A stretch of DNA of 64,000 nt, taken from assembly GCA_017619275.1 (NCBI GenBank), contig JAFZSR010000100.1, positions 1-64,000 of the forward strand, written 5' to 3'. A program made the translations under genes and the position numbers. The notes beneath the pieces were generated by a model. That model was given only the letters and a program-made list of their open reading frames with translations. It did not search any database and had not been told where the DNA came from. Of the stretch, positions 1 to 61,603 are shown in pieces. The DNA comes from Prevotella sp. (GTDB taxonomy: Bacteria; Bacteroidota; Bacteroidia; Bacteroidales; Bacteroidaceae). Numbering within the stretch: position 1 is the stretch's first letter; each line of letters starts with the position of its first letter.

Positions 1-41
1 AATGATAAATGATAAAACGATGCGCTTCATGATAAATGATA
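1..41. repeat. AAATGAT-type 7-bp repeats
   Basis: Degenerate copies of the 7-bp unit AAATGAT lie at 2-19 and 29-41, immediately downstream of the GH31 stop codon. The same unit recurs near 34.5, 36.75 and 59.05 kb. Confidence 0.7.
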
Positions 42-2312
42 TTACTTTAGTTCTACCTTGATGGACTGGCTGCACTCGGTGATGGGCACGTAGACGGTGG
101 TGAGGCGGCGCTGTGCGTCGTAGTTCCACACGCCGTTGCTGCATTTCGTTCCGTTGATGCTGACTGCCTGCGGGCGCTCGGTTCCAAGGAACTCCACGGT
201 GTAGGCGCGCTTTTGGGGCATCCCCTTGAAGCGGCCCTGGCGAGGTTCAATGGTGAGCGTGCTGCCCTGATGGCGCATGGTGGTCGTAGTGTATTCGCCG
301 TTCTTGTAGGCCTCGGTGTCGCCCTCGTCTTCATAGAGCGAGGTCTGTCCGTCGGCACCCGGCACCACCTTCACAATGAGTCGGTCGGGGCGTGTGTTCA
401 GGTTGAGCATGGGCGGATTGTTCACGATGATGCTGCCAGCCCTGTAGAAATAGGGAATCTCGGGCTGGGCGTAGCTGTCGGTGAAGACGCGGTTGCCCTC
501 TTTCACCTCGCCACGGCACACGTCGTACCAGCGTCCTTCGGGCAGCCAGGTCTTGCGCGTGGCCTTGCCATCGGCACCCGACGGGCTGACCACGGGTGCC
601 ACCAGAATGTCGTCGCCAAACAGGTATTCGTCTTCATAGAGGTAGCTCTCGTTCTGCTCGGGCCACTCGTAGTAGAGCGGTCGGCAGAGGCTCACGCCCG
701 TGTCGTAGGCCTGTCGGCAGGCGGTGTAGATGTAGGGCATGAGGGCGTAGCGCAGCTTTACCGTCTCGAGCAGCAGGGGGAAGTTGTCGTACTTCCAGAT
801 GCGGCGCTCAATACCGGGCCAGTTGGTGGCGTGGGTGCGGAAGATGGGGGTGAACACGCCATACTGCATCCAGCGCAGATAGATTTCAGGGTCGTTGTCG
901 CCCGTCTGCTGGTGTCCGCCCAGGTCATGTCCCCAATAGCCGAAGCACACGTTCGAGGCGGTAGCGGTGAAGTAGGGCTGCCAGGCCAGTGTGCCGTAAG
1001 TAGTAAAGGAGTCGCCCGAGAAGCCGATGGGGTAGCGATGGCTACCCAGTCCGCCCCAGCGGTGGAAGATGAGCGGACGATGGTTGGGACGGTTCAGGCG
1101 CATGTCGTTGTAGAAGACGTGGTTGCACCAGAACGTTTCGCCCAGCCCGTCGACATACTTGCTGGTGAGGTTCTGCTGCCAGTCGATCCACCAGAAGTCC
1201 ACACCCTGTTGCTCGCGAGCACGGATGATGCGGCCGAACATGTTGTGGTAGAACTTCTTGTCGCTTAGGTTCCAGGGCACCACCTTCGCTGTGGTGGGCA
1301 GCCCCATGTCGTTGCGCAGCTCCTGGAAGAAGTCCTCGTCGTCGTCCACGCCGTCGGCGGGGTGCAGGTTCAGGCTCACCTTCAATCCGTTGTGGTGCAT
1401 CCACTCGATGAGTCCCACGGGGTCGGCGATGGCGGTGCTGTCCCATGTCCAGCCTGTCCAGCCCTGCGTGTGCCAGTCCATGTCGAAGATCATCACGTCC
1501 ATGGGAATCTGGTTGCGCTTCACGTCGTTCACAATCTCCATGAACTCGTCGCTGGTGTAACGCTGGTACTTGCTGTACCAGTAGCCCAGCACGTAGAGCG
1601 GCGGCATAGGCTGGCGGCCCGCAATCTTGATGTAGTCGCCCAGTGCCTTCTTGTACGCATGGCCGTAGCCCATGAAGTACCAGTCGATGGCCTCCTTGTC
1701 CACAGGCTGTGCCACCCACTCAATGCCGTCCTGCTCTCCTTCGAAGGCGAAGGTGGTGCTGCCGTCGCCACGGCGTGTGAGCGGCGACTCGTCGATGACG
1801 GCCCAGCCGGCACGCGAGAGCAGACCGTTCTCCATCTCCCGACGTTTGTTGTCGCCTATCTGGCCGTCGAGTGTGCGGGTGGTGCCCTTCAGGTTCAGGG
1901 CGTCGTCCTTGCCCGGATACCACACCACCGGCCTGCCGTTCAGCTGCATGTCGATGCGCAGCACCTGGTCGCTGCTCTCACCGCTCAGCTCTCCGCTCTC
2001 ACCTCTAATTTTTCCACCTATTTTATATTTTAACGTCAGTGTGTTGGTCTTGATGTAGAGGTAGCCGTTCCGCTCTTCCTTCGTGAACTGTGGCACGGGC
2101 AGGCGGCGGTTGACCACGGCAAATGTTGCGCGGTCTTCAAACCGTTCGCGCTCGCTGTATTGTATGCGAATCATCTCGGGCGTGAGCACGGTGAAGCGGG
2201 CCTTGCCGGCCGTCACCACGGCGTCGGGATGAGCCACGGGGTTGTTCGGCTGTGCCACGACGTTGGCGGCATAGCCCAGAACCAGGAATAACAATAGTCT
2301 GAATCGTTTCAT
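42..2312 (-). CDS. GH31 family alpha-glycosidase, secreted
   Basis: This is a 756-residue glycoside hydrolase of family 31 (alpha-glucosidase/alpha-xylosidase group). The start at 2312 gives a clean signal peptide (MKRFRLLLFLVLGYAANVVAQ); upstream in-frame codons add a charged stretch and overlap the -7 box, so they were rejected. The nucleophile is Asp377 in WWIDW and the acid/base is Asp434 in FSGDSF, so both catalytic residues are present. The C-terminal part (EDEYLFGDDILVAP, then a beta-sandwich with SLYEDEGDTEAY) matches the usual DUF5110 arrangement. It appears monocistronic, with its own promoter and with the terminator of the next gene upstream. Substrate within GH31 cannot be read from sequence; in this alpha-mannan island it probably trims alpha-linked glucose or xylose side chains (inference). 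Confidence 0.93.
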   Translation of the reverse strand: MKRFRLLLFLVLGYAANVVAQPNNPVAHPDAVVTAGKARFTVLTPEMIRIQYSERERFEDRATFAVVNRRLPVPQFTKEERNGYLYIKTNTLTLKYKIGGKIRGESGELSGESSDQVLRIDMQLNGRPVVWYPGKDDALNLKGTTRTLDGQIGDNKRREMENGLLSRAGWAVIDESPLTRRGDGSTTFAFEGEQDGIEWVAQPVDKEAIDWYFMGYGHAYKKALGDYIKIAGRQPMPPLYVLGYWYSKYQRYTSDEFMEIVNDVKRNQIPMDVMIFDMDWHTQGWTGWTWDSTAIADPVGLIEWMHHNGLKVSLNLHPADGVDDDEDFFQELRNDMGLPTTAKVVPWNLSDKKFYHNMFGRIIRAREQQGVDFWWIDWQQNLTSKYVDGLGETFWCNHVFYNDMRLNRPNHRPLIFHRWGGLGSHRYPIGFSGDSFTTYGTLAWQPYFTATASNVCFGYWGHDLGGHQQTGDNDPEIYLRWMQYGVFTPIFRTHATNWPGIERRIWKYDNFPLLLETVKLRYALMPYIYTACRQAYDTGVSLCRPLYYEWPEQNESYLYEDEYLFGDDILVAPVVSPSGADGKATRKTWLPEGRWYDVCRGEVKEGNRVFTDSYAQPEIPYFYRAGSIIVNNPPMLNLNTRPDRLIVKVVPGADGQTSLYEDEGDTEAYKNGEYTTTTMRHQGSTLTIEPRQGRFKGMPQKRAYTVEFLGTERPQAVSINGTKCSNGVWNYDAQRRLTTVYVPITECSQSIKVELK

Positions 2313-2344
2313 TTTCGATAGTTGGTGTTTGGTTTTTTCCGATG

Positions 2345-2352
2345 CAAAGTTA
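2345..2352 (-). promoter_or_regulatory. -7 promoter box of GH31 gene
   Basis: The minus strand reads TAACTTTG, matching the Bacteroidota -7 consensus TAnnTTTG, about 33 bases upstream of the start codon. No convincing -33 TTTG is seen. Confidence 0.6.
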
Positions 2353-2420
2353 AGCCTATTCTTGCGCACACGCATATAAAATAAGGATTGTATAACAAAT
2401 ATCAGGGTTATACAAAAATT

Positions 2421-4340: not shown

Positions 4341-4392
4341 TTGCGGGGCGGCACTACACCAAAAAATGCATAAAAATTCTGATTTGAATGCC

Positions 4393-7300
4393 TTATTGCT
4401 CCCCGTTGTCGAACAGCTCAAATTCGTAGATGCGGGTGGCGTCGCCGGTGGTCTGCGTGGAGCCTACCACGAAGAGGCGGACGTAGCGGGCATCGGTGGG
4501 AGTGAAGCGTCGGTCGGTGACGTTGCTGCGGTTCTGGTCGAACATATCGACGGTGGTCCATTCCTCGTTCTCGCTGCAGCGCACTTGCAGTAAGCAGGTG
4601 CGGGTGATGTAGCTGAAGTCCTCGGCACCGGCATGGAGCAGGCGCCAACGGTTCACCTTATGCGTGGCACCCAGGTCGAAGACCACGTAGTTGGGGGCGG
4701 GCGTGATGTCGCACCATTTGGTGTTGTCGTCGCCGTCGGTGAGGAAGATGGCCCGCTCGCGGTCGTTGCACTCGCCTGTGACTTTCACGATGCGGGCCGA
4801 CTTCAAGAGCGACTGGGGCTGGGCAGAAACGTTGAACGTTGAATGTTGAACGTTCAACGTCGTGGGGAGCGACGTCTGGAAGAGCGGCGCAGCGGGTTGC
4901 AGGTCGGGCTCGCCATCAGTCACAGTGGCGGCGAAGACCACGATGTCGGGGTCGTTGGGCATCAGCACCTCGCAGGGCTGTTGGGGTAGGGTGATGTCGA
5001 TGCGGAACATGTAGGTGTACTCGTAAGGCTCATCGTCGGCAGCGGAATGGCGGTGCGTGCCCACATAGGCCACACGGGCATCCTTGAGGAATCCGTCGGT
5101 GTGGCCGTCGTGCTGCCACTGGCCTATAAAGCCCGTGTAGAAGGGAATGGTGGCGGTGGTGACGCTGTTGCCCACGCGGAATGTGGCCACGCGGTCGCCC
5201 TTGGCAGAAGCGGCCAGCAGGTGGAGGTAGCCCCCTTTCGAGCCCCCTCCAAGGGGTAGGGTCTGACCCTTGCAACTCATACCGTTGAGACCGTCGGGCT
5301 CGCCAAAGCGGAAGGGAATGTCGCCAACGGTGATGCCCTCGGTGGGCAACAGCTCGGCGGCATAGCTATAGCCGCTCTCGAAGTTGGCATCCTGACGGAA
5401 CGCGTTGTAGCTGAAGCAACGACGGTCGAAAGGAAGCGAGATGGTCGTTTGGTTGTTTAGTCGTTTAGTCGTTTGGGTATTTGACCTTAGCTTCAGTTTG
5501 TAGGTCTTCACACTGTAGGGCTGGATGGCGACGCTTAGCGTATGGCCGTCGTGGGTGGCGGCGCCAATGGTCTTCTCAGTGCCGTCGGCCTCTACGACTT
5601 GCAGGATGGGAGCGGCAAAGGTGAGACGGGCGGTCTGTGCCGACTTGCCGCTGAGCTCGTAGACACGGACGACATACTCGTCGCTGGCCTCGGCGCGCTT
5701 CATGCAGCGCACCAGCACGTTGGCATTGTCGCTGCTGACGAAGGAGAACGTGCGCCCCAGCTCGCCCTTGTGCTTCGTGGCGAAGAACACCTTCGGACGG
5801 CTGTTGAGCAGCGTGGCTTGCTGCGAGGCCTGCATCTCGTCGAAGGCGCCCTGATGGCCCACGAGGCTATAGGTGAACACATGGTGGCCCAGGTCCTGCT
5901 GCTCCTGATAGGCGTAGTTGCCGTTGGTCTTGGGCGTGTAGAGCAGCGAAAGGCGCAGGGTGTGGTCGTCGGGCTTGTCCCAGCCGTAGCGCGAGTCGTT
6001 CATTACGGTCACGCCGTAGCTGCCCGAGGCATCGGTGAGGTCGGTCCAGCGATGGGCGTAGACCTCGAACTGGTTGTCGCGGTTGTTGCCGCGCTGAACG
6101 TTGCCGAGGCCGATGTCGTAGGTGGCTTTCTCATTGCCTACGCTGAGCGGGAAGACCGCTTTGAGGAGTGCATTGCTGGAACGCCAGTCGACCTCGTTCT
6201 CGAAGTCGATGCGTGCGGCCTGCGCGCCCTCGTAGAGGTGGATGCGTTGCACAATGTCCGACTGGCCGTATTTCTTCTTCACCACAATGGTCTTGCGCAA
6301 GGCGCCTTGCTCGACGCTGACCTGAGCCTGGTCGTGAACAGGTACGGGAGCCTTATCGAGGGTGCGCTTCTGAATCTCCCAGGCTGGCCAGCGGTAGGAG
6401 CGACAGTCGTTGAACACGGCCAGTCCGATTTGTTGGCCGTCGGCCACCAGCTCCTTGTTGGCCCGCTTGTCGATGAGCGAGACGATGTCGCCATACTCGT
6501 TGACACGAAGGCGGTAGACGGAGTTCTCGATGAACGTTGAATGTTGAACGTTCAACGTTGAACGTTCAACGTTAATTGCTGGGCCGTTATTCAAACTATA
6601 AACAGCAAGGCCAGCGGAGGGGAGGCTGGCCTCGAAGAGGAGCATGGTGCGCCCCTGCTGCTCTACAAGCTGCGAGGGTACGCGGCGGCCCTGTGCATCG
6701 GTCACTCGGCAGCCCTTACTCTTCCAGCCAACGGGAAGTTCCATCTGGCAGACGGTGGTGACGGGGAAGGCCTCGTTGTTATAAACGACGATGGGCTGTC
6801 CGCCTACGTTGGTGTCCATCTTGCGTGCAATGGCGCTGACGCTGTGGGTGAGCACATCCGAGAAAGTCTTCAGGCTGAGCAGCTCGTCGTTCCATGAGAA
6901 CTCGTAGGCACGGGGGATACTGGTGCCGGTGAGGTCGTCGTGGAACTGGTGCCAGATGACGCGGCGCCAGGCCTCGGTGAGCGTCGACTGGGGATAGCTG
7001 GCAGTGCCGAGCCAGTCGGCCATGACGGAGGCACGCTCGGCGGCATCGCCCAGGTGCTCGTTCTGTCGGTTATAGAGCTTCATGGCTGCCTGCGAGGTGT
7101 AGCATCCGTTGCCGTGCAGGTCCATCGTGAGCTCGCCGTCGATGACGGGCAGCTCGGGATGCTGCTCGAAGGGGAGGTAGTCTTTGTAGAGCTGGTCGCT
7201 GGTGGCGCTGATGATTTGGATGGGTCCGTCGCCGCCGATGCCTTTCTCCACGGAGCGCACGGAGCCGATGGTGGGCGAGCCGCCGATGTCGCCAGTGCCG

Positions 7301-9617: not shown

Positions 9618-12600
9618 TTATCTTCTTTTAAATACTTTGCAGATGCTTCCGTCTTCGCGGCGGACGATGTTGATGCCCATGAGCATGCTGTCGACCTGAA
9701 TGCCGGAGAGGCTGTAGATACGTTGAACGTTGAACGTTGAACGTTGAACGTCGTTGATGGTGCTCACGTCTTCGGGCTCCTCGGCGCCGTAGATGTTCGT
9801 CAGCTTCAGGTTGGCTTCGCGGATGCGGACCTCGTCCATCTTCATCACTTCGCGGTTGTAGGTCATCAGGCCGTTCACCTCGGTCTCCACGTCGGTGGTC
9901 TGAGTGTAGACGGCGGCGCAGAAGGCGGCCTTGCCTCCGTCGTTGGCCGTGGCGTCCTTCGCCATCGTGACCACCGCCTCCACATTCTGCACGTAGGCGT
10001 CGGTGAGCTGCTTCTCGCTGGCGTAGTTCACGTAGGTGGTGGCGTTGTTCTCATACCAGCGGTGGTCGGTGATGTGGCGGCCCAGTCCGCCAAACTCGCC
10101 CAGCACTACGGGGCGGTTGGGGTCGTAGAGGAAGATGTGGGGCGGACGGTCGTAGTCGTGCAGGTCGACGATGTCGCCAACACCCTGATAGTGGTTGCCG
10201 CCGCTGGCAGCGTTGACGAGGCGGGTGTCGTCGACGGAGCGGGTGAAGTCGACAACCTCCGAGGTCTTGAACTGACCCCAGCTCTCGTTGAACGGTGTCC
10301 AGACCACGATGGCGGGGCTGCCAAGGTGCTGCTCGATGATTTCCTTCCACTGGTTCTTGAAGTTCTGCTCTACGGCGGTGGCGTGCTTGCCGGGATTGGT
10401 GCTCCACTCGCGGGTGACCCACGGCTCGTCGCTGCGGCCCAGGGCGGGCATGTCCTGCCAAACGAGGACGCCCAGACGGTCGCAGTGGTAGTACCAGCGG
10501 GCGGGCTCCACCTTCATGTGCTTGCGAATCATGTTGTAGCCCCAGTCTTTGGTCTTTTGCACATCGTAGGCCAGCGCCTCGTCGGTGGGGGCGGTATAGA
10601 GCCCGTCGGGCCAATAGCCCTGGTCGAGCAGCCCGAAGTGGAACACGTCGCGGTTGTTCAGCTGCATGCGCCACTCGCCGTTGTCAAGCTTGCGCATCGA
10701 AATCTTTCGCATGGCGGCATAGCTTTGCACGCGGTCGCCGCTCTGGAGCGACACCTCCAGGTCGTAGAGCCAGGGATTGGTGGGGCTCCACAGCTTGGCG
10801 TTGGGCACGTTCAGCTCGATGGCGCTGCCAGTAGTGCCGGTGGCCTGGGCCACGGTCTGTCCCTTCAGTTTGAGCACCACGGTGACGGGGTCTGCGTCGG
10901 TGGCGGTGCCACCGACCACCGAACCACCAGTTACGGAACTGCCACCGACCACCGAACCACCAGCTACGGAACTACCACCGACCACGGTGACGTTCAGCTT
11001 GCCGTGGTCAACGTCGGGGGTGGCGACGATGTTGCTGATATAGGATTGAGGCACCGGCTCGAGCCACACTGTCTGCCAGATGCCCGACACTTGGGTGTAC
11101 CAGATGCTGCCCGCGCCGCCGGGGTTGTAGCGCTGCTTGCCCACGGGCTGCGTGGTCTCATCGGTGTTGTCGATAACCATCACAGCCAGGGTGTTCTCGC
11201 CCTCCTTCAGCTGCGAAGTGATGTTGATGGCGAAAGCGCCAAAGCCTCCGGTGTGGTTGCCCACAAGATTGCCGTTGACGTAGACGCGGGCCTGATAGTC
11301 CACGGCGCCGAAGTTGAGCAGCACCTGCTGCCCTGCCCAGCCAGCGGGGATGGTGAATGTGCGCTGATACCACAGGTAGTTGTTCTTGTCGAGCATCCGC
11401 ATCACCCCCGATAGGCTCGACTCCACGGGGAAGGGCACGAGAATCTTGCCGTCCCATTCGGTGGGGATGGTGCGCTTGGTGGTGATGGTGTAATCCCACA
11501 GTCCGTTCAGGTTCAGCCATTCACTCCTCACCATCTGCGGACGGGGGTATTCGGGCAACGGCAGCTGCGGGTTCACCTCTGCTGCCCAGCGTGTCTTTAT
11601 CTTATAGCCCTGTGGCTGCCATGACTCTTCCGAAGGATGTGGCGCATACTTGTCCATGAGCACCTTCATCCAGTGGCCTCCGATGACCGAGCGGGCACGG
11701 AATCCGCGGGCCTCGCCGTTGCCCGTCCAGTACCAGTCGCTCAGCGGCCAGCGGGTGCGGGTTTCGTTGGCATACTTCCACACCAGGTCCGAGAATTTCA
11801 GGAACGTCTCGTTGTCGTCGGCCATTGCTGCCGTCCACATCACCCAGTCGCTCTTAGTGTAGTTCTCGCGGTTGTCGAGGGGAAGACCGTAGGTGTTCTG
11901 CTTCGTCAGGTAGAACTTCATCTCGCGCTCCAGCACTTGCTTGGGGAAGATATGGATGCCCCACAGCTTATCCCACACCAGATTGTACTTCTGACTCCAC
12001 GAGCCGCCACGGTCGAAGGCCAGCTTGTAGTGGTCGCCGTCGCGGGCGTCAATCTCCCACACCTGTGCCATCCGTTTGGCAATGTCCATATATCTGTTAT
12101 ACAGGTCGCTGCGACCGCGCATCTGGCACATCTCGGCGTAGGCGGCGATGCCCATGATGGCTTTGATGCTTAGGTTGGCGTTGTGTGCCCAATGGCCGGC
12201 AAAGTCGTCGGTGCAGAGCTGCGTGTCGGGGTCTTGTCCGTTGTTCACTAAGTAGTTCACCCAGCGCGTGCAGATGTTCCAGTAGGTGTTCACCCAACTG
12301 GTGTTTCCCTCAATCTTGCTGATCATGGCAGCCAGCGTGAGCATGTTGCCACTCTCCTCCAAGGGCATGTCGCCGCCATACACCTGTCCGTTGGCATGGG
12401 GATAGGTGCCCAGGTCGTGGGCGGCCCAGTCCTTGTTCCACTTGCCGGTGCGCTGGTATTCAAAGATAGAGGTCATCATGCCTTTCTGCAGCTCGGTGTT
12501 GTAGAGCAGGAAGAGCGGAGCCGAGGGGTAGGTAAGGTCGACGGTGTTCACGCAACCGTTTGAGTTGTTCTCCTTCGAGAAATAGAGCAGACGGCCACCG

Positions 12601-14269: not shown

Positions 14270-14273
14270 GCAA

Positions 14274-21900: not shown

Positions 21901-23121
21901 CGCATCTCCGTCATCGACGATGGCCCCGGCGTGCCGAAGGAGGAGCGCGACAAGATCTTCGACCTCTACTACCAGATTGGCCGCTCGGCCTTGCCGCTCG
22001 GCGCTGCCCACGACGAGCATGTTGCAGCCACTCTGGGCACCGGCCTCGGCCTCTCCTACGCCAAGATGCTGGCACAGGCCCACGATGGCGACCTCGTCTA
22101 TGCCGACGCCGTGGGGGGAGGGTCAAACTTCCAGCTGGTGCTGCCAATAAAAGAGAACCAGCGGACCGCCCAGACCTCCACCCTGCAGACCCACCCCTGG
22201 CCCCTCCCTTGTAGGGAGGGGAGTGGTTACACTCAAGACCAAATATCTGATGGAGAACAATCTGCGGAAGGACTATCTACTCCCCTCCCTGCAAGGGAGG
22301 GGGCGGGGGAGGGTCCGCTGGGGATGGGCCTGCAGTCTCAGTTCCGCATCCTCATCGTGGAGGACAACGAAGAGCTGCTGCAGATGACCACCGACGCCCT
22401 GCGACAGCATTTCCGCATCCTCAAAGCCCGTGATGGCATCGAGGCGCTCGACGTGCTGAAATACAACGATGTCGACATCATCGTGAGCGATGTGATGATG
22501 CCCCGCATGGACGGCATCGAGCTGTGCACCAAAGTGAAACAGGACATCAACTACTCGCACATCCCCGTCGTCCTGCTCACGGCGAAGACCAGCGTCGAGG
22601 CCAAGGTGGAAGGGATGCAGAGCGGAGCCGACATCTATCTGGAGAAGCCCTTCTCGGTGAAGCAGCTGCACCTGCAAATCCTGAACCTGCTGCGGATGCG
22701 TCAGACCTATTACGAGCGCATGCGCAACATCAACCTCGACGGCAACGACAGCCCCGACGACCCATCGGCCAGCACCCCCACCAACCAGCTGGGCCTCAAT
22801 CAGCAAGACCTCCTGTTCATGGAGCGGCTGCAGAAGATGGTGGCCGAGAACATGCGCGACGAGGAGTTCTCCATCGACCAGCTGGCCGAGCAGATGAACA
22901 TGAGCCGCAGCAGCTTCTACCGCAAGATTAAAGCCCTCACCGACATGACCCCCGTGGACTACCTGAAGATGCGCCGTCTGGAGCAGGCCGCCACGCTCCT
23001 GCGTCAGGGCATCCGCATCACCGAGGTGGCCGAGCGGGTGGGATTCACCAGCAGCAGCTACTTTGCAAAGTGCTTCAAAGCCCGTTTTGGCGTATTGCCA
23101 AAGGACTTTATAGCACGATGA
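18967..23121 (+). CDS. Hybrid two-component system regulator (HTCS)
   Basis: A 1384-residue single-chain sensor and transcription factor. In order: signal sequence; about 14 Reg_prop beta-propeller blades (e.g. FVWLGTNNGLNCFD, NIWIGTQGQGLFIYN) to about 690; a Y_Y_Y domain (about 690-765); a transmembrane helix (about 773-793); HisKA with phospho-acceptor His831 (VHEIRTPLTLI); HATPase with NAAKYA, DDGPGVP and GTGLGLSYAK; a receiver with Asp1175 (IIVSDVMMP); and an AraC-type helix-turn-helix at the end (ITEVAERVGFTSSSYFAKCF). It would bind a glycan fragment in the periplasm and activate GH and SusCD genes. The linker between kinase and receiver (about 1074-1117) is encoded by an inserted G/C-rich palindromic repeat. 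It is the only HTCS in the window and lies between divergently transcribed GH operons. Confidence 0.96.
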   Translation: MKLLPKRFIRLYTLLYMWMLATIAAASITAPTFTNYMAADGLSDNNVLCGLRDRYGFVWLGTNNGLNCFDGAQNTIYRNMIEGRSGIENNTITALYEHGDDIWFGGSFGLYVYDRQAHRFKSFDKQTKYGVSISATVQDIVGTQDGNIWIGTQGQGLFIYNPKTDVLTQDSRHGAFVSDILAVNDSPVFVATLQGHILLYGQDGTYKMEHSIPDYRSDKHNISLEVVGFRLYIGCERGLYTVLRGDGEVTAVPRVDIGIHSLLRNGNQLLMGTDQGIYLYDPATQQMRRFDNPDDKSAGLTDQRVNALAWDNDSTLWVMTQMGGVCYMPQRSSDVRMAHFSENVRGNMIYAVCETPDGRLWIGHENGLGIYNPATQLIDDYPAPALKQEVNVLMADGNDLWIGTRRQGVFVLNTVSHELRHYQYSADKSYTVPSNEITCLLRTSEGVIYVGTSWGLCRYERETENFMWYFEIGSTTRVTSMAEDHDGCVWASTSNHGLFKQWEKGSTFRNFTYQQEEAQSLANNNVSSVFCDHSGQIWVVYNGTGLARYMSDTESFEPFVADIPEIQDQQIYFIVEDLQHNLWMGVETGMLCMDASRDAASIQVLRGGSDMARQLKPRNSACVSRGGELFAGRFNMLAHFHPDRIKIDNSRAPVYITHLTSTSTQTSTTLPYHDAASPQGAAQQVSLTLPYSDNGFTLHFSQPRFIGASSQRRFEYRMQGIDASWTKGTKNAEATYLNMPPGDYVFLLREAGNTDEGSFARLNITILPPWYRTNLAYFIYVLLIASAIAWLLYRYNSRLKKRYNRRLKEYQTEQEKANFESKIRFFVDIVHEIRTPLTLISLPLEQMEESPLSDENRRHASAIRRNMNYLLGITNQLLDFQKAEHGKIQLNLRSSDVGQLLNDTFLQFTDAMEVQGKRIQLQLPDEPIVSTIDADKVQKVMMNLIGNAAKYARSEIIVRLELLPAPNGETAGAPIDQLRISVIDDGPGVPKEERDKIFDLYYQIGRSALPLGAAHDEHVAATLGTGLGLSYAKMLAQAHDGDLVYADAVGGGSNFQLVLPIKENQRTAQTSTLQTHPWPLPCREGSGYTQDQISDGEQSAEGLSTPLPAREGAGEGPLGMGLQSQFRILIVEDNEELLQMTTDALRQHFRILKARDGIEALDVLKYNDVDIIVSDVMMPRMDGIELCTKVKQDINYSHIPVVLLTAKTSVEAKVEGMQSGADIYLEKPFSVKQLHLQILNLLRMRQTYYERMRNINLDGNDSPDDPSASTPTNQLGLNQQDLLFMERLQKMVAENMRDEEFSIDQLAEQMNMSRSSFYRKIKALTDMTPVDYLKMRRLEQAATLLRQGIRITEVAERVGFTSSSYFAKCFKARFGVLPKDFIAR
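22186..22317. repeat. Palindromic G/C-rich element in HTCS coding sequence
   Basis: Two arms, CCCCTCCCTTGTAGGGAGGG-type (22200-22222) and CCCCTCCCTGCAAGGGAGGG-type (22281-22302), are homologous to the right and left arms of the intergenic element at 26145-26266. The insert stays open in frame. Confidence 0.8.
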
Positions 23122-26136: not shown

Positions 26137-26144
26137 ACAACAAG

Positions 26145-26266
26145 GCGCAGCCACTCCCCTCCCTTCAAGGGGAGGGGCAGGGGTGGGGTCTGTATATTCC
26201 TCATTCGCAGGACTTTAGAGGCCCCACCCCTAACCCCTCCCCTTGAAGGGAGGGGAGTGGCTGCGC
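26145..26266. repeat. MITE-like palindromic element with 46-bp arms
   Basis: Long near-perfect inverted repeat: arms 26145-26190 and 26221-26266 begin GCGCAGCCACTCCCCTCCC and contain nested CCCCTCCCTTCAAGGGGAGGGG palindromes; the spacer is about 30 bases and there is no coding capacity. Related arms occur inside the HTCS gene and in other genes. This and the neighbouring repeats fill the 650-base gap 25988-26637. Confidence 0.85.
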
Positions 26267-26398
26267 GTAGTTTATCTCAGATTGGTCTTAATGACGGTTT
26301 GGTTTAATGCGACTTCCATTCAGTACAAGCCTGCCGATAAACAAGCTTCTGGAGCGTATGTCAAAACGGCTGATTTTCAGTAACTATTTTGGGCCCCA

Positions 26399-31771: not shown

Positions 31772-31825
31772 CTATAGATTCTATAGAAACTATAGAGACT
31801 ATAGATACTATAGAAACTATAGAAG
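31772..31825. repeat. Six tandem 9-bp CTATAGAAA units
   Basis: Six uninterrupted 9-bp units, each CTATAGANN, occupy the space between the converging GNAT and acyltransferase genes. Confidence 0.92.
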
Positions 31826-34533: not shown

Positions 34534-36803
34534 CGTATGATGTATTTCTTTTTATTGAAAATTGACCATTGACCATTGACCATTGAACGTTGACCGTTGA
34601 ACGATGAACGTTGACCGTTAATGCGGCGGCCCAGGAGGTCGTAGACATAATGGTCAATGGTCAATGGTGAATGGTCAATGTTGAACGTTGCCTGTTCAAC
34701 GTTCATCGTTGATTGTTCAACGTCGAAGAGTTTCCATGCCCCCAGCATGATGTTGGCGGAGTTCTGCGTCTCGGTGATGACGAGGCGATAGTAGCGGTAG
34801 GGCTGGCCAACGTTGGGATTGATGAGGGCGTAGTCGTCGGTGAGCAGACCGGCACGGCGCAGCTCGTCGACGGCTTCCATCAGCATGAGGCCCGTCTGTT
34901 GGCGCGAGGTATCGTGTACGTCATTATTGATGTTGTACTGCTGCGTCCAGTAGGGGTTAAGGACGAACCACGTCTTGTCGAGGGCGGCCAGCTCGGCCGA
35001 GCGTGCCTGTTCGAGGAGCCACTTCGTGTAGCGCACCTGGTGCTCGGTGTCGAGCTTGCCAGAGAGAATCCACTGGGCGAGGTAGCGGATAAAGATGCCC
35101 TTGAACAGTCCGCCATCGTCCTGGTTGTAGTTCTGACGCTCGTTCATGATGCCCTTGGGCGAATACCACTTGCCAAAGAGCAGCAGGTCCATCAGGTCGG
35201 TAGCCGTCTGGCGGTAGTGCTCCTCGTTGGTAATCTTGTAAAGCTCCAGCAAACCGCCCACCCATGTGCCTTGGTTGTAGCTGAAGGTCACCTCGTGGTT
35301 GTCGTTCTGCGGGGTGTCCTTCATCACGCCGTCGGGAAAGCGGCAGTGGTCGCGCATGTATTCATAGATGCGGATGGCCCAGTCGAGGTATTGCTGGTCC
35401 TTCGTGTGCTGGTAGAGGCGTGCGGCAAGAATCATGGCAGGACAATTGGAGCAGGCGTTCTTCGTGGCGCCGTCGCCGTTGATGTTTTTGTTCCAATGGA
35501 TGCCGCCACCGTCAACGTCGTCCCATCCTTTCACAATGTCGTTGAAGAGCGTCTTCACCTGCGTCAGGTACTGGTGGTTCAGGTTGGCATTGGCATCGCA
35601 GGCACGCAGCAGGGCCAGCGCCATCCACTCCATGTCGTCGTAGAAATGGTTGATGAGGGTGTTGCCGTTGCGAAGTCTGGTGCCGTTGACAAGGTGAGTG
35701 AGCTTGGAGAGCACAGCCGACTGTTGCGTGCGATTGTAGCGGTCAACATAGTTGTCGACGCCGTGTGCCGCCCACCAGTAGCCGCCCCAATCCTCGTTGC
35801 GCTTCTTCGGGTCCACGGCCCAGTCGCATATCCAGTAGGTGCCGTTGGCGCTCTGATTGCGCTCCAGCTGCTGCTCGCAGAAGTCCATCATGCGGTCGGC
35901 TATGGAGGCGTAGTTTCCCCCAGCCCCCGAGGAGGCCAACGTGTAGCGCTGCTCGTAGTAGTCGATAGCCATCGAGGCGGCATTGTGCTGGATGTCGAGT
36001 GTGACCCACTGCTCTCCGTCGTTGCTGGCCAACAGCTCCCAGCAGTTGGGACGCATGTCGCGCTGCGCCGAGCTGGTCATGCCAATGGCGTAACCCGTGA
36101 TGGTGGTGGGGTTGTTGAACTCGTATTGCAGCCAAGCGTTCTGCAGACCGTTGTAGCGTGTCTCGCCGTTGAAGTTGTCAATCATCTGGCGGTCGGCATT
36201 CTGTATCTGCGCCATCGTCTTCGGGTCGTTGTCGATGAGATTGCTGATGCTGCCAGCCTTGGCCGAGCCAGTGAGGGTGCCGTTCTCTGTCGTGGCGATG
36301 TTCTCGCCGTCGGTCTGCGGATGGCCGAACAGCTGGAACTCGGCTATCCGCAAGCCCTCGCTGCCCGAGGCGCTCTTCAGCACCAGCTTGAAAGCCGTAA
36401 AAGCAGTGCTGGGGCCGCCGTTCACTTGGCGCTCGCGGTAGCGGCCGGTATAGCTGAGCGAGTAGGTGCGGATGTTCTGCCACGTCACGCCGTCGGTAGA
36501 ACCCAGCAGCTGCAACTGCTTCAGGTCGCAGTTGGCATCGTCGGCGCTCACCACGGAGAAGCCTTTCATCACATAGGGACGGCGTGCCTTGAGGATGATT
36601 TCCTCGGTACCTGCCAGCTGCGGCAGGGTGAAGACAGTGAGGTCGTTCTTGTCGAACAGGGGCGTCAGGTCGGCCTCGAAGCCTACGGCCTCGTAGGTGC
36701 AGTCGTCGGTGATGCTGTAGTCGGCGAGCGTCTTTTGTGCAGCTACGCTGCTATATGATAATTGATAAATGAAAAATGATACGAATGCCAGGAGCTTTTT
36801 CAT
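34530..36803 (-). CDS. GH76 enzyme with N-terminal discoidin-like domain
   Basis: A 757-residue secreted family 76 alpha-mannanase. The N-terminal 275 residues are non-catalytic beta modules (LQLLGSTDGVTWQNI and ITGYAIGMTSSAQRDMRPNC point to one or two F5/8 type C domains). The catalytic alpha-toroid follows, with Asp389-Asp390 in FYDDMEWMALALLRA and GGIHWNKN plus KNACSNCPA. The signal peptide core (FVSFFIYQLSYSS) is encoded by degenerate AAATGAT units. The last 75 residues are largely TTGAACG/TTGACCA repeat translation around a type-A tail (VYDLLGRRI). Start and stop overlap both neighbours by ATGA. It probably differs from the shorter GH76 in substrate binding. Confidence 0.92.
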   Translation of the reverse strand: MKKLLAFVSFFIYQLSYSSVAAQKTLADYSITDDCTYEAVGFEADLTPLFDKNDLTVFTLPQLAGTEEIILKARRPYVMKGFSVVSADDANCDLKQLQLLGSTDGVTWQNIRTYSLSYTGRYRERQVNGGPSTAFTAFKLVLKSASGSEGLRIAEFQLFGHPQTDGENIATTENGTLTGSAKAGSISNLIDNDPKTMAQIQNADRQMIDNFNGETRYNGLQNAWLQYEFNNPTTITGYAIGMTSSAQRDMRPNCWELLASNDGEQWVTLDIQHNAASMAIDYYEQRYTLASSGAGGNYASIADRMMDFCEQQLERNQSANGTYWICDWAVDPKKRNEDWGGYWWAAHGVDNYVDRYNRTQQSAVLSKLTHLVNGTRLRNGNTLINHFYDDMEWMALALLRACDANANLNHQYLTQVKTLFNDIVKGWDDVDGGGIHWNKNINGDGATKNACSNCPAMILAARLYQHTKDQQYLDWAIRIYEYMRDHCRFPDGVMKDTPQNDNHEVTFSYNQGTWVGGLLELYKITNEEHYRQTATDLMDLLLFGKWYSPKGIMNERQNYNQDDGGLFKGIFIRYLAQWILSGKLDTEHQVRYTKWLLEQARSAELAALDKTWFVLNPYWTQQYNINNDVHDTSRQQTGLMLMEAVDELRRAGLLTDDYALINPNVGQPYRYYRLVITETQNSANIMLGAWKLFDVEQSTMNVEQATFNIDHSPLTIDHYVYDLLGRRINGQRSSFNGQRSMVNGQWSIFNKKKYIIR
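34557..34722. repeat. TTGACCA/TTGAACG repeat tract at GH76 C-terminus
   Basis: Two blocks (34557-34620 and 34649-34722) of 7-10 bp units in both orientations, separated by the codons for YVYDLLGRRI. All are in frame and encode NGQRSMVNGQWS and STMNVEQATFN. Confidence 0.88.
36753..36781. repeat. Degenerate AAATGAT units in second GH76 signal peptide
   Basis: About four diverged 7-bp units encode the core FFIYQLSY of the signal peptide. Confidence 0.75.
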
Positions 36804-39104: not shown

Positions 39105-40187
39105 CTACCACTGAATGGCCTGATCCTCGTTTGGAATCTGCGTGTTCAGCTGACGTTCGAGGGTGAGGATACCCTTGGTGGTGTAGTGCATCGGATAGTT
39201 CTCCACGGAGGTGTAGTCGGTGTAGTCGTACTCGATGCCGCTGATGATGACGTAGTGGTGCAGCAGGTAGGGACGCACGTCGTCGGCCTGCTCGTAGATG
39301 CGGTAGGAAGCGGTGCCGTGCTGCACGAAGTTGTTCTTCTCGGCGTTGTCCGACGAGAGGCGCACGGTGCCTTGTTTGCCGTCGGCCGAAGTGGGAACGA
39401 ACTCGAATTTCACCTTGTAGTAGCGGCGGTCGACGCGTGTCTCGTCGATGTTGCCCATGTAGAAGAACACACTGTTCTCATCCACCACATAGGCACGTGC
39501 CGTCTCCATACCCGTGGCGTTGTTGGGGTCGGCGGCGTTGGTCACGGTGAGCGTGGTGGCCGAGTAGTTGCCCGAATAATCGTTGTAGGGATAGACGCGC
39601 AACATGGCCTTGGCGTAGTTCTTGCGAGGATGGGGCTGATAGCCGCTGGCCGTCTTCACCTCGATGGGCAGCACCCATTTCTCTACCATATCGATGCCCT
39701 TGAAGTCGAAGCTGATGCGCAGCAGACCGATATCGTCGCCGCTCTTCACCGTCACGTTGGCAGGGTACTGGGCGTAGTCGCTCATGTCCTTGTAGTAGAG
39801 GTCGGTGATGTCGGCTCGGTAGGTGGGGCTGCCGAAGCGCTCATAGTTGAGGATGGCGAGTGTGTCGCTGTGACCCACCTGTACGTTGATGTCGCTGCCG
39901 TTGCGGGTGGTGCCGGCCACGATGACGGGGAGGTCGTAGCTCGACTTTCCCTCGCTGCCAAACATCAGCGAGCCGTCGTCATTGTGGCGCGAGTAGGGCA
40001 CATAGACCGCCGTCACACCATTGTCGTTGAGGGGAGCCTTGAAGCTGATATACTTCTCGTACTGCTCGTCCTGCCACTCGTCGTTGCAAGAGGTGAGGGA
40101 AGCGATGGCGAAGAGCAGCAGACCTACTCCCCAGACCCTCCTTGCGAGGGAGGGGAGTATATAGTTGTTTACGTTACAGCTTTTCAT
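39105..40187 (-). CDS. DUF1735/DUF4361-type surface lipoprotein
   Basis: A 360-residue outer-membrane lipoprotein (lipid Cys34 in ASLTSCNDEW), placed where SusE lies in other operons. An Ig-like N-terminal domain (YISFKAPLNDNGVTAVYVPY) and a C-terminal lipocalin-like half (YVVDENSVFFYMGNIDETRVDR) match the DUF1735 plus DUF4361 arrangement of SusCD-linked proteins. It is predicted to bind glycan at the cell surface. The stretch NNYILPSLARRVWGVGLLL in its signal peptide is encoded by a G/C-rich CCCTCCTTGCGAGGGAGGGG repeat at 40124-40160. It is the fifth gene of the mannan operon. Confidence 0.82.
   Translation of the reverse strand: MKSCNVNNYILPSLARRVWGVGLLLFAIASLTSCNDEWQDEQYEKYISFKAPLNDNGVTAVYVPYSRHNDDGSLMFGSEGKSSYDLPVIVAGTTRNGSDINVQVGHSDTLAILNYERFGSPTYRADITDLYYKDMSDYAQYPANVTVKSGDDIGLLRISFDFKGIDMVEKWVLPIEVKTASGYQPHPRKNYAKAMLRVYPYNDYSGNYSATTLTVTNAADPNNATGMETARAYVVDENSVFFYMGNIDETRVDRRYYKVKFEFVPTSADGKQGTVRLSSDNAEKNNFVQHGTASYRIYEQADDVRPYLLHHYVIISGIEYDYTDYTSVENYPMHYTTKGILTLERQLNTQIPNEDQAIQW
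40124..40160. repeat. G/C-rich palindrome in lipoprotein signal peptide
   Basis: CCCTCCTTGCGAGGGAGGGG, a relative of the element at 26145-26266, lies within codons 10-22 of the DUF1735 lipoprotein gene. Confidence 0.75.
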
Positions 40188-40230
40188 ATTCGTCAGGAAT
40201 TAGATGTTTTGTTCTTTTTATGATGTAATC

Positions 40231-40265
40231 ACTCCCATCCCTCACGGGGAGGGGCAGGGGGAGGG
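40231..40265. repeat. G/C-rich palindrome between SusD and lipoprotein genes
   Basis: CCCTCACGGGGAGGGG and a following G-rich run lie 10 bases after the SusD stop codon (minus strand). Confidence 0.65.
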
Positions 40266-45673: not shown

Positions 45674-45745
45674 TCGTATAATCCGTATAATCCGTTGTAC
45701 GATTAATCCGTTAAATCCGTTAAATCCGTTAAATCCGTTGTCCGT
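45674..45745. repeat. AATCCGTTA 9-bp tandem repeats before susC
   Basis: Four perfect or near-perfect 9-bp units (45704-45739) with degenerate ones on both sides fill the gap between the IPT gene and susC. The same unit, reversed, occurs between susC and susD at 57018-57056. Confidence 0.9.
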
Positions 45746-59026: not shown

Positions 59027-59044
59027 GCGGGCGGCCTGCGGCCA

Positions 59045-59065
59045 AAATGATAAATGACAAATGAT
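59045..59065. repeat. Three AAATGAT units between susD and susE
   Basis: Three tandem 7-bp units (AAATGAT, AAATGAC, AAATGAT) lie directly upstream of the susE-like start. Confidence 0.85.
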
Positions 59066-59078
59066 AAAAACAATCAAT

Positions 59079-60260
59079 ATGAAAAAGGATTTGTTTGAAA
59101 AGACAAAGGAATTGCTTCACTTTGTTGTCTATATACTCCTCCCCCTCGTTGGGGGAGGCTGGATGGGGGTTGCTTGCAACGAGGATCCCGAGTATTTCCA
59201 GCTCCAGACCTATCCCGACCAGATGCACATCGACGTGTCGCAGACCGAGATTGTGTTCAACAAGGGCATCGCCAACCAGCCCGCCCTCACCTTCAACTGG
59301 CAGAAGGCCGTCAGCCCCATCAATGCCTCCGACGAGGTGACCTACAAGATGGCCTTCTACGACACCAACCAGAAGACCGAGAACCACTCCGAGTATATCG
59401 ACCTGGGCGATGTCACCACCGCCTCCTTCACCCACGACGAGCTCAACAGCATCGTGTCGCGATGGGTCATCCCCGGACAGCCCCTGCAAGTCACGGCACA
59501 GCTGCTGGCCATCGTGCACAACAAGGAGAAGTACGTCAAGCCCATACAGTCGACCGTCGACTTCACGGCCACCTGCTACGAAAAGTATCCCACCTACATG
59601 TACATCCGCTACACCGACGACCTCACCCAGGTCACCAAGACCGAGCGCATGGAGCAGCGACAGATGGGAACGGGCATCTACGAGGTGACGCTCAACCTGG
59701 AGCCTTGCACCTACTATTTCCTTACCACCCTTGAGGACTATCCTGCCTACGGCGTTGCTGCCAACCAGACAGGCAAGCCAGGCATCTACACGATGGACTA
59801 CGTCACCAGCGGCACCGTCAACCCCTTCACCACCACTGAGTATGGCCGCCGCACCATCGTCATCGACACCAACGCCGATGAGAACAACTGCCGCATGTAT
59901 CTGCCCCTGCCTTCGTCGAACATGCCCTGGATAGTGGGCAACGCCACCGACATTGGCTGGGAGACCAACCAGCCCGCAGGCAAGTTCACCGTGGCCGACC
60001 CGTTGCACGAGCCTTACATCTACACCTGGACGGGCAACCTCATTGCCGGCGGCGAGTTCAAGATTGGCTTGGGCTCCAGCTGGGGCGACCAGTTCTTCTA
60101 TGCCCCCACGGCCAATGCCGACCCCTTTGCCACCGAGACGCTCTTGCCCTATCGCCTGCAGGACGATGGCGGCGACTTGAAGTGGGTGCCCACCCAGAGC
60201 GGCGTCTATACCGTCAAGCTCTCGCTGCTCGTCAACGACATGTATATCAAGCTCTATTGA
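59079..60260 (+). CDS. SusE/SusF family outer-membrane glycan-binding lipoprotein
   Basis: A 393-residue lipoprotein in the SusE position. An N-terminal SusE domain (PALTFNWQKAVSPINASDEV) is followed by C-terminal SusF-like starch-binding-type modules (MPWIVGNATDIGWETNQPAG and YIYTWTGNLIAGGEFKIGLG). The start at 59079 (MKKDLFEK) was chosen; an ATG at 59061 falls in the AAATGAT repeat. The signal peptide ILLPLVGGGWMGVAC is odd: it is encoded by a CCCCCTCGTTGGGGGAGG palindrome at 59135-59170, and lipidation would be at Cys33. It binds glycan at the surface with SusC/SusD. Confidence 0.9.
   Translation: MKKDLFEKTKELLHFVVYILLPLVGGGWMGVACNEDPEYFQLQTYPDQMHIDVSQTEIVFNKGIANQPALTFNWQKAVSPINASDEVTYKMAFYDTNQKTENHSEYIDLGDVTTASFTHDELNSIVSRWVIPGQPLQVTAQLLAIVHNKEKYVKPIQSTVDFTATCYEKYPTYMYIRYTDDLTQVTKTERMEQRQMGTGIYEVTLNLEPCTYYFLTTLEDYPAYGVAANQTGKPGIYTMDYVTSGTVNPFTTTEYGRRTIVIDTNADENNCRMYLPLPSSNMPWIVGNATDIGWETNQPAGKFTVADPLHEPYIYTWTGNLIAGGEFKIGLGSSWGDQFFYAPTANADPFATETLLPYRLQDDGGDLKWVPTQSGVYTVKLSLLVNDMYIKLY
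59135..59170. repeat. G/C-rich palindrome in SusE signal peptide
   Basis: CTCCCCCTCGTTGGGGGAGG encodes the hydrophobic core of the lipoprotein signal. Confidence 0.8.
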
Positions 60261-60272
60261 CCCTTATTCGCC

Positions 60273-61547
60273 ATGAATATGTTGCATAAATCAATATTTG
60301 CCTTCGGCCTGGCCATGATGACCATCGTGGCCTGCGCCGACGGCGAGCAACCCGCCACCTACCAGAATCCCGTCATCGACCGCAGCTTGCCCGACCCCAC
60401 GGTCATCCGCGCACAGGATGGTTATTTCTACCTCTACGCCACCGAGGACACCCACAACGTGCCCATCTACCGCTCGGCCGACCTGGTGAAGTGGCGCTAC
60501 ATGGGCACCGCCTTCACCGATGCTACACGCCCCATGGACATGGTGCCCAACGGCGGCATCTGGGCGCCCGACATCAACTACATCGACGGCAAATATGTGC
60601 TCTACTACTCCAAGTCCACTTGGGGAGGCTCCTGGGAGGCAGGCATCGGCGTGGCGTGGTCGAACCGTCCCAACGGTGGCTTCCACGATGCCCACAAGCT
60701 TTTCGTCAGCAACGAGATTGGCATCGAGAACTGCATCGATCCCTATTTTATGCAGGACGACGACGGTCGCAACTACCTGTTCTTCGGCTCCTTCCACGAC
60801 ATCTATGCCGTAGAACTCACTGCCGACGGCCTCAACCTCGTGGAGGGCACCACCCCCGTGAAGATTGCCGGAGGACTCATCGAGGCCACCACCATCGTCA
60901 AGCACGACGGCTATTTCTACCTCATTGGCTCCACGGGCACTTGCTGCGAGGGCGCCAACAGCACCTACCGCCTGGTGATGACGCGCTCGAGGAACCTCCT
61001 CGGACCCTACGTCGACCGTTACGGCCGTACGGCCATCGGCGACAACTTCTCGCCGCTGCTCAACAAGAGCCCCCAGGTCTATGGTCCCGGCCACTGCTCG
61101 CGTTTCGTTACCGACGATGCCAATCAAACGTGGATGCTCTATCACGGCTATCAGGCCAGCGATGTGGATGGCGGCCGCAAGGTCTATCTCGACAAGATTA
61201 GATGGGGCACCGACGGCTGGCCTACGGTGCAGGGCATGCGTCCCTCCGTGGAGGCCGAGGCCCCGCTCTTCGGCGATGTGGCTGGCATTGCCTCGCCCAG
61301 GGCCCAGCGCGAAGAAGAGCCAGCAGTCATCCTCCTGTCTACCAATGTGCCTGGCGTCTATCGCTTGGAGGGTGCCGACGATGGCGTTTTCAGCTGGCAG
61401 CTCATCAGTGCTGCCGGCCGACCGATGCAGCGTGGTACGGCGCGTCGAACGGCCATTGTCGATGCCTCGCACATGGCAAAGGGGATGTATGTCATTCACA
61501 TCGATTCGCCAAAAGGAATTCAAAACCTGAAAGTGATGAATCTTTAG
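60273..61547 (+). CDS. GH43 lipoprotein with C-terminal sorting-like domain
   Basis: A 424-residue family 43 enzyme, the last gene of the SusCDE operon, starting 12 bases after SusE. Catalytic acids are kept: Asp in LPDPTVIRAQDG, Asp in NCIDPYFMQDDDG and Glu in GLIEATTIVKHDGYFY. It is close in sequence to the GH43 at 17637-18773. Lipoprotein signal: MTIVACADGE (Cys21). After the propeller, the last 75 residues (VYRLEGADDGVFSWQLISAAG, ending GMYVIHIDSPKGIQNLKVMNL read in two parts) look like a full type-A type-IX sorting domain, which is unusual together with a lipobox. Arabinanase or arabinofuranosidase activity is likely. Confidence 0.91.
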   Translation: MNMLHKSIFAFGLAMMTIVACADGEQPATYQNPVIDRSLPDPTVIRAQDGYFYLYATEDTHNVPIYRSADLVKWRYMGTAFTDATRPMDMVPNGGIWAPDINYIDGKYVLYYSKSTWGGSWEAGIGVAWSNRPNGGFHDAHKLFVSNEIGIENCIDPYFMQDDDGRNYLFFGSFHDIYAVELTADGLNLVEGTTPVKIAGGLIEATTIVKHDGYFYLIGSTGTCCEGANSTYRLVMTRSRNLLGPYVDRYGRTAIGDNFSPLLNKSPQVYGPGHCSRFVTDDANQTWMLYHGYQASDVDGGRKVYLDKIRWGTDGWPTVQGMRPSVEAEAPLFGDVAGIASPRAQREEEPAVILLSTNVPGVYRLEGADDGVFSWQLISAAGRPMQRGTARRTAIVDASHMAKGMYVIHIDSPKGIQNLKVMNL

Positions 61548-61572
61548 TTGAACGTAGGTTTTCATAGAAAAC

Positions 61573-61603
61573 AAAAAAGAGGGGTGATTCCCCTCTTTTT
61601 TCG
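61573..61603 (+). terminator. Rho-independent terminator of SusCDE-GH43 operon
   Basis: Perfect 12-bp stem AAAAAAGAGGGG/CCCCTCTTTTTT with a 5-base loop, 25 bases after the stop codon; bidirectional. Confidence 0.93.

Follow-up and report, generated by a model that had tools for sequence, protein, structure and literature searches.

The heptanucleotide repeats of cyanobacteria are known as STRR. Like other dispersed heptamers they form short arrays at very many sites, are patchily distributed between relatives and often lie beside gene starts (PMC4679880, PMC4692102); in the accessible parts of these reports, the TAACTGA heptamers of Beggiatoaceae are described as intergenic (PMC4679880), and the GGGAATC heptamers of Xanthomonas include intragenic copies, which are underrepresented on the coding strand (PMC4692102). 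Within the same scope, repetitive extragenic palindromic sequences (REPs) have been reported inside genes, uvrA among them (PMC3733652), Rickettsia palindromic elements (RPEs) are in-frame palindromic inserts in many unrelated genes that are tolerated by the proteins (PMC2229807, PMC10969869), and at the Yersinia locus YPO1552 the mobile repeat YPAL/RU-2 is fused in frame and forms part of a signal peptide (PMC2229807). Here we describe small dispersed elements of three classes, namely E1 (REP-like GC palindromes), E2 (a hairpin with TAAATGA-type arrays) and E3 (TTGAACG/ATTGACC arrays), in a stretch of 64,000 nucleotides (the window; positions 1-64000 of contig C126) with polysaccharide-utilisation genes from a 3.59-Mb draft genome of Prevotella (85% complete, 127 contigs). 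Each of the three classes occurs both between genes and in frame within genes, and it is probable that these families have been recruited as linkers and export signals.

Arrays were tested with Tandem Repeats Finder (TRF) and Markov-1 shuffles, REP and probe patterns with reversed-pattern controls. The own-genome sample consisted of the window and 40 further stretches (845 kb, 89% coding by approximate codon-scored gene models). For comparison one genome per species was used, with protein-level identities to the nearest genomes of 77-88% at the proteins compared; the nearest named relative of the window's GH38 gene lies in a Prevotella metagenome genome from water-buffalo rumen, with 83% identity over the best segment.

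The N-terminus of the SusE-like protein of the window matches many unrelated proteins, and the part they have in common, VYILLPLxGGGWxGVxC, is a translated REP. A search with one E1 signal peptide yielded 41 places in 21 of 200 genus genomes, in frames of 213-784 aa save for one weak match in a 3476-aa frame. Thirty of the 41 places were read (L224, L232-L260), of which L243, L251 and L260 lacked the motif and were dropped, leaving 27; seven older E1 loci were set aside as duplicates. A second REP (loose pattern) was found upstream of the start at 25 of the 27 distinct motif loci, with the start codon between the two REPs; by the same pattern the background was 6 in 241 for genes of the own-genome sample and 1 in 383 for those in the loci of relatives. 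For the SusE-like gene itself, the loose-pattern match to the left turned out to fall on the 3' end of SusD, which is conserved (compare L209), and the left REP was counted as absent. Ten of the proteins with E1 signal peptides were scanned and fell into six Pfam groups (Fasciclin, SusD, SusE, FKBP_C, Peptidase_Mx1 and TIG). At the level of sequence, E1 pairs are thereby shown to flank the start codon and to encode, on unrelated proteins, the predicted hydrophobic core of signal peptides of the lipoprotein type.

Orthologues of the SusE-like protein with 88% (L208) and 82% (L209) identity carry other signal peptides, with similarity resuming at the lipobox Cys, and no REP was seen in their signal-peptide region or in the 90 bases upstream; the comparison of the TIG protein L256 with window positions 45750-47486 is the reverse of this case. 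Signal peptides diverge fast, and the abrupt edge of similarity at the lipobox Cys therefore falls short of proving an insertion point. The signal peptide of the SusE protein of genome G083 (L209), MITKNFRHIFAAFSVGCGLAATLASC, resembles that of the neighbouring SusD in the window, MITKNIKHIIAAFSVGCGLVATAPLTSC (57059-57150), which suggests a possible exchange of signal peptides between adjacent genes.

The E1 unit approximates GACCC[A/T]CCCCC..CCCCTCCCT....AGGGAGGGGAGT..ATAG; it is frequently found in inverted pairs with a spacing of about 50-110 bases, in some cases more. Pairs are built of copies in opposite orientation (e.g. C6:1198+/1251-), and some copies are unpaired. By eye, the pairs end in inverted palindromes of about 45 bp, and the foot reads CTATATACT/CTACT, with GTAG on the other strand only and in part of the copies; no clean empty site, from which a target-site duplication of the MITE kind could be read, was seen among the compared genomes. 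The REP pattern gave 88 forward and 91 reverse matches in the own genome and none with the reversed-pattern control; as the pattern is near-palindromic, these were counted as about 90 sites. The strict form was present in 72 of 200 genus genomes, and its reversed control in none. A REP-associated tyrosine transposase (RAYT) was considered as the mover of E1 and rejected for now: Y1_Tnp matches occur in 26 of 35 genomes, and none of the loci scanned for REP (10 in one scan and 6 in another, two in common) contained one. The own draft genome, at 85% completeness, holds one truncated Y1_Tnp of 142 aa.

E2 is found at the 5' ends of genes in a different role. The signal peptide of the GH76 gene at 32956-34533 reads MKKTLAF-LSFIIYHLSF-SSAAAQ, and its 23 residues gave matches in 40 of 200 genus genomes (E up to 0.05; some not genes). 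Among the matches listed, 55 places were read (L341-L395); two were without the match and two more were duplicates, resulting in 51 distinct loci, which, having been found by similarity to one query, are biased towards AxAQ endings and not towards codon complementarity. Different proteins share LSFIIYHLSF followed by S-x-A-x-A-Q, in which the two x residues are coupled through the reverse complementarity of codons 2 and 4 (SSA-A, SPA-G, SHA-V, SYA-V, SDA-V, SRA-A, SGA-A). With wobble allowed, the two codons pair at all three positions in 40 of the 51 distinct loci; among the 44 whose cleavage region (c-region) has Q as its sixth residue, the count is 39. For these 44, 10,000 shuffles of codon 4 gave a mean of 11.4 and a maximum of 22, and never reached 39. 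A poorer register gave 36 of 55. For the five-pair stem, 29 distinct segments showed 93% pairing versus 71.5% in shuffles, 32 two-sided changes versus 11.5, and a covariation score of 0.595 versus 0.183, which fell to 0.099-0.200 when the partner was slid by 1-3 columns. This covariation may reflect selection on an RNA or DNA structure, or the way in which palindromes are made and repaired.

In the own-genome sample, 8 of 14 TAAATGA-type arrays (4 in gaps, 4 in signal peptides) have a hairpin immediately upstream and one has it downstream, where random 20-mers gave 6.1%. As a companion of all heptamer arrays the hairpin was rejected, with TTGAACG-type arrays having it upstream in 1 of 50 cases and downstream in 4 of 50. 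In reversed copies the array is translated as the hydrophobic core and the hairpin as the AxA region; the same layout was found in gaps in the opposite direction. Among six aligned orthologues of the GH76 gene 34530-36803 (own included), only the own gene and that of G083 have the heptamer signal peptide, and the mature proteins start alike. At the level of sequence, reversed E2 copies are in this way shown to encode complete-looking, putative Sec/signal peptidase I (SPase I) signal peptides, in which the residues of the c-region track the pairing of bases in the hairpin.

Inside proteins, the same linkers carry different repeats in different lineages. Of 80 GH38 orthologues fetched, 19 were aligned: the linker before the C-terminal domain contains TTGAACG arrays here, a GC palindrome in the nearest orthologue, L031 (DNA CCCTCCCCTATAGGGAGGGG, peptide VPLPYREGMGES), SLPSPREGMGVG-type peptides in L061 and L063 and, judged from the peptide, a third heptamer in L033, and is ordinary-looking in most of the others. 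A second GH38 linker holds an 8-mer here; at this place L031 and L032 have heptamer-like repeats, and L033 an insert rich in GC. For the housekeeping gene pyrK (Pfam DHODB Fe-S and NAD-binding domains), 30 places were read among the matches in 150 genomes, own included. Its linker before LLVGGGVGVAPL has 57 aa here, with TTGAACG arrays in inverted order, 36 aa in G083 (226/293 residues identical), with inverted ATTGACC-type arrays, and 45 aa in G166 (202/293 identical), made up of an E1 pair, the latter two checked at the DNA level; in the 27 other aligned orthologues it has 8-29 aa, with a different repeat in L264/L265 and in L270, and single GC palindromes in L274 and L284. In the hybrid two-component system (HTCS) gene the linker holds an E1 pair here, a Ser/Glu repeat in the nearest orthologue (79%), and another E1 pair with a different loop in G083. 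Arrays also occur in UvrA, a REC-LytTR regulator and MnmE (Pfam), and in two further genes that we take, from their motifs, to be DXS and RNase R. The orthologues at 77-88% identity do not show the same residues written in unrelated codons but differ in both residues and repeats at these places, and the in-gene copies compared are shown to be lineage-specific.

Period-7 arrays, of which the own-genome sample contains 79 (against 0-32 at any of the other periods between 4 and 12), are mostly of the TTGAACG unit family (42 of 79). Another set of 42, those borne by genes, contrasts with 37 intergenic arrays. Read along the sense strand, the TGA-free orientation is found in 33 of these 42 in-gene arrays, the opposite in 7 and neither in 2, a bias that is inflated by gene calling from open reading frames (ORFs). 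Along the gene, nine are placed within the initial 8% and 18 within the final 7%, so that 27 of 42 are near the ends and 15 in the interior, and of 16 arrays in 14 scanned proteins of the sample, 14 are outside the best stretch of every listed Pfam family. In-gene arrays thus cluster near protein ends and mostly outside Pfam domains. E3 arrays make linkers between domains and before C-terminal tails, sometimes as inverted pairs; among 10 neighbouring array pairs within 250 bases (any unit), 5 are inverted with TGA first and none is inverted the other way. With a 7-nt unit, each added copy would shift the reading frame. An 18-base TTGAACG probe (at most 1 mismatch) had 232 matches in the own genome, 64, 23, 9, 2 and 1 matches in 5 of 35 genomes of the same genus, and none in 24 genomes of other genera.

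As a separate observation, nearly all unit families (18 of 19 in the own-genome sample, 21 of 22 among relatives, L031-L110) contain a stop codon on at least one strand, compared to about 50% of random heptamers, and the TAACTGA unit of Beggiatoaceae fits this pattern too. A stop codon as a designed feature of the unit was set aside, the unit families being related and AT-biased.

The starting point of this work, an initial annotation of the window, had listed at least six unrelated short-repeat families that occur in gaps and, in frame, in genes. The repeats are where it placed them and exceed chance: the window contains six arrays of period 7, one of period 8 and three of period 9, with none of each in 20 Markov-1 shuffles, TRF recovered the identical loci, and the draft genome as a whole contains 462 matches to CGTTCAACGTTCAACGTT (at most 2 mismatches; overlaps within arrays counted), against none for the reversed pattern. 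The ORFs indeed stay open across the in-gene tracts. Occurrence in both gaps and genes was borne out, as repeats within the window, for AAATGAT and the GC palindrome; the other four families did not follow. TTGAACG occurs in window gaps as single units only (50204, 57024, 61548, and 50176 on the other strand), and its arrays there are confined to genes, while elsewhere in the genome they lie in both. AATCCGTTA (45675-45739, 57018-57045) and CTATAGAAA (31772-31824) are found in gaps only, and GTTTAGTC in GH38 only. A plus-strand ORF across CTATAGAAA (31663-32547) was discarded as not credible, being antisense to an acyltransferase-like gene. Nor are the families all unrelated, as TTGAACG, ATTGACC and AATGGTC arrays intergrade at 34554-34727. 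The restriction to linkers and termini was worded slightly too strongly: the GH2 tract 10907-10985 lies inside the Pfam GH2 envelope (aa 1078-1185). This tract is a 33-bp coding repeat, separate in kind from the dispersed families. The GC tracts at 5243-5261 (GH38) and 12898-12916 (GH2) are weak palindromes and were not counted on their own. Of the proposed frame-filtered insertion or expansion, a gain and turnover faster than protein divergence that look filtered by frame stand, arrays being sparser in coding than in non-coding DNA; a single unnamed process does not, with at least three element classes present, two of which match known kinds (REP palindromes of the bacterial interspersed mosaic element type, REP/BIME, and dispersed heptamer repeats). 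The repeat-coded signal peptides, which are the most striking part of the observation, had not been noted. The features are compiled in Table 1.

Table 1. Dispersed repeats and related tracts in the window, in order of position (aa, residues of the encoded protein)
Positions	Strand	Feature	Remark
1..41	.	AAATGAT-type repeats	gap at window edge
4828..4860	-	E3 array, GH38 aa 1078-1089, before F5/8 type C domain (aa 1113)	
5442..5476	-	8-nt repeat TGGTCGTT/GTTTAGTC, GH38 aa ~871-884	
6531..6573	-	E3 TTGAACG array, GH38 aa 507-521, just before Glyco_hydro_38C (aa 521)	
9720..9751	-	E3 array, GH2 fusion aa 1508-1519, before C-terminal tail	
22190..22316	+	inverted E1 pair, in frame, HTCS gene	linker between HATPase_c (to aa 1062) and Response_reg (from aa 1128)
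26139..26272	.	inverted E1 pair, intergenic, tails inward	
31772..31824	.	9-nt CTATAGAAA array, intergenic; overlapping + ORF spurious	TRF
34469..34513	-	E2: hairpin GCAGC-TGC-GCTGC (34469-34481) and AAATGAT array (34483-34513); putative signal peptide MKKTLAFLSFIIYHLSFSSAAAQ, GH76 gene 32956-34533	
34554..34727	-	inverted E3 array pair around tail motif YVYDLLGRRI, GH76 gene 34530-36803	
36739..36781	-	degenerate E2: hairpin GCAGC-TAC-GCTGC (36739-36751) and TAAATGA-like array; putative signal peptide FFIYQLSYSSVAAQ, GH76 gene 34530-36803	
40129..40165	-	E1 palindrome, 5' end of DUF4973/BT_3044-like lipoprotein gene 39105-40187 (YILPSLARRVWGVG)	
40220..40265	-	left E1 palindrome of DUF4973/BT_3044-like gene; ATG (first base 40187) between the pair	
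45675..45739	.	9-nt AATCCGTTA array, intergenic; related copy 57018-57045	TRF
59033..59070	+	E2, intergenic, opposite sense: hairpin GGCC-TGC-GGCC and AAATGAT array, just 5' of SusE-like start	
59124..59170	+	E1 palindrome, putative signal-peptide core VVYILLPLVGGGWMGVAC of SusE-like gene 59079-60260; no left REP	

The window also contains a further dispersed repeat, which consists of the palindrome AAAAATCTCGTACGAGATTTTT and one or two nearby 21-nt repeats holding AAAAGTCGTTACCAAAATT (14416-14507, 26398-26489, 51367-51445; also 4232-4386). The palindrome has 25 sites in the 845-kb sample; three copies in the window are intergenic, and the repeat is possibly an operator or terminator. Three 22-bp tandem copies of GTGTACATGGCCGATGTACAGT at 62073-62138 look like operator iterons; the gap that they occupy borders the 3' end of a gene assigned by eye to a Crp/Fnr-like family (62206-62865, minus strand). 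The GH2 fusion (9618-14273) encodes a protein of 1551 aa that joins a GtaA-type six-hairpin (glutaminase A) region to a GH2 region, and its N-terminal half is repeated at 47500-49953 with about 75-82% DNA identity in blocks. An acetyltransferase-like frame at 31276-31747, adjoining the CTATAGAAA array, is apparently broken by an in-frame TAG (by eye; two fragments) and is perhaps a pseudogene.

Under the explanation that we consider probable, the elements would be copied from place to place, by non-autonomous mobility or by recombination or template switching between copies; selection would purge copies that break frame or fold, tolerate neutral copies in linkers, and repeatedly keep those that work as export signals. 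Copies at 5' ends would supply the hydrophobic core and the approach to the cleavage site or lipobox, and E1 also the surroundings of the start codon. From the sequences and the families involved (SusD, SusE, fasciclin and similar) we infer that the E1 and E2 N-termini export their proteins. Several results weigh against this explanation. No movement was observed, and no exact empty site with target duplication was found, the nearest genomes being 77-88% identical; the Y1_Tnp loci examined contained no REP-flanked Y1 transposase. The second REP is missing at 2 of the 27 E1 signal-peptide loci, the window's SusE-like gene among them. Of the five covariation measures for E2, the number of pairs with two-sided change (194/500) and that of pair types (309/500) did not exceed the shuffles. 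Two arrays lie inside a Pfam domain envelope, both in a Porin_10 protein, and the array densities (0.386 per kb of non-coding versus 0.056 per kb of coding sequence, about sevenfold) are inflated by the sample, which was mostly drawn from contigs already known to have matches. The array-bearing linker of the REC-LytTR regulator is no longer than in 29 aligned orthologues; therefore replacement as well as insertion must occur. Finally, part of the E1 signal-peptide set also shares the n-region, and some copies therefore probably spread as whole 5' cassettes.

In an alternative explanation the elements themselves would not be mobile: ordinary homologous recombination or gene conversion among the ends of paralogous genes would spread cassettes of signal peptide or linker, with the repeats as passengers that supply homology. 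The common n-regions, three cassettes on one contig (C11) of G096 and the resemblance between the SusE signal peptide of G083 and that of the window's SusD are in its favour. We nevertheless regard it as unlikely, since the loops between REPs vary widely among genes (by eye, in 22 extracted loops, some from the wrong strand), the E2 stems differ by compensatory changes and not as descendants of one cassette would, and repeats are also carried by linkers of housekeeping genes that are not paralogous.

It is well known that strand slippage produces tandem arrays and that perfect palindromes result from template switching. Local replication errors of these two types, arising independently in each low-complexity linker with nothing moving, would be expected to leave heptamer arrays and palindromes, and they would suit hairpin stems that vary in sequence yet stay paired; slippage is cited as an explanation for heptamers in the accessible part of an earlier report (PMC4692102). 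On the other hand, E1 is not simple sequence, one unit family accounts for 42 of 79 arrays while its 18-base probe is absent from 54 of the 59 other genomes searched, and independent origin would not yield one unit at so many sites as the 462 matches against none in the control, which makes local errors as the sole source distinctly improbable. It is very improbable, too, that we are looking at ordinary conserved or convergent low-complexity protein sequence that appears repetitive in DNA. The tract positions are naturally variable and of low complexity in proteins, but the same DNA letters are also present in gaps that are not translated, and those of E2 on the opposite strand, the residues are not common to orthologues, and there is no protein-level reason for the codon complementarity of E2. 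An assembly artefact would have to be considered for a metagenome-derived draft in 127 contigs at 85% completeness; with the same kinds of element in many independent genomes, and REP copies in genomes of two contigs and 99% completeness, G156 and G170 among them, its likelihood is negligible.

More tentatively, and with slightly more doubt than belief, we suggest that a genus-wide pool of elements could be a portable source of export signals and linkers, so that secretion and domain spacing would evolve by element traffic. Insertion of a REP pair would turn the 5' end of a gene into that of a lipoprotein, a reversed hairpin-heptamer element would give an SPase I signal peptide with its cleavage region set by a nucleic-acid hairpin, and heptamer arrays would lengthen linkers, also in housekeeping enzymes. 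This would be a concrete route from non-coding repeat to protein part, with signal peptides and linkers that could be dated by comparison of strains. E2 is an unusually clean case, in that residues 2 and 4 of the c-region are tied by base pairing; we know of no selection at the protein level that would impose this tie. For annotation, a signal peptide shared by unrelated lipoproteins (e.g. YILLPLVGGGW) may be mistaken for homology, and protein searches with element-coded N-termini or C-terminal tails return element matches.

Compared with known systems, REPs, in-frame palindromes, heptamer repeats and one signal peptide made partly of a repeat are already on record. In the literature searched we found no recurrent genus-wide recruitment of such elements as signal peptides, no hairpin that sets the c-region of a signal peptide, and nothing closer on repeats of Prevotella or Bacteroidetes; the element peptide strings and two TAAATGA-type DNA strings occurred in no main text. 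E1 resembles REP/BIME as a short GC-rich imperfect palindrome with an asymmetric foot, about 90 sites and frequent inverted pairs. It differs in the lack of a REP-linked Y1 transposase at the loci examined, apparently in its foot (CTATATACT/CTACT, without a clear GTAG or CGTC tag), and in that it repeatedly surrounds the start codon and encodes a putative signal peptide of lipoproteins. The heptamer arrays resemble STRR and TAACTGA-type repeats in that a seven-base unit dominates the tandem arrays; unlike the TAACTGA type they are not mainly intergenic by count (37 of 79), despite an about sevenfold density in gaps, and unlike the heptamer repeats compared, one family has an adjacent hairpin and encodes putative signal peptides. 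In behaviour, with no kinship claimed, the tracts are like RPEs, as the accessible parts of those reports describe them, in lying in frame in unrelated genes and being absent from orthologues; they belong to a different phylum, their inserts are mainly in linkers and termini, heptamer arrays share the sites, and export signals appear to arise from them. Set against YPAL/RU-2, for which the accessible text names one locus, the elements described here extend to dozens of genes in many species, with two element classes and a cleavage region that appears to be set by a hairpin.

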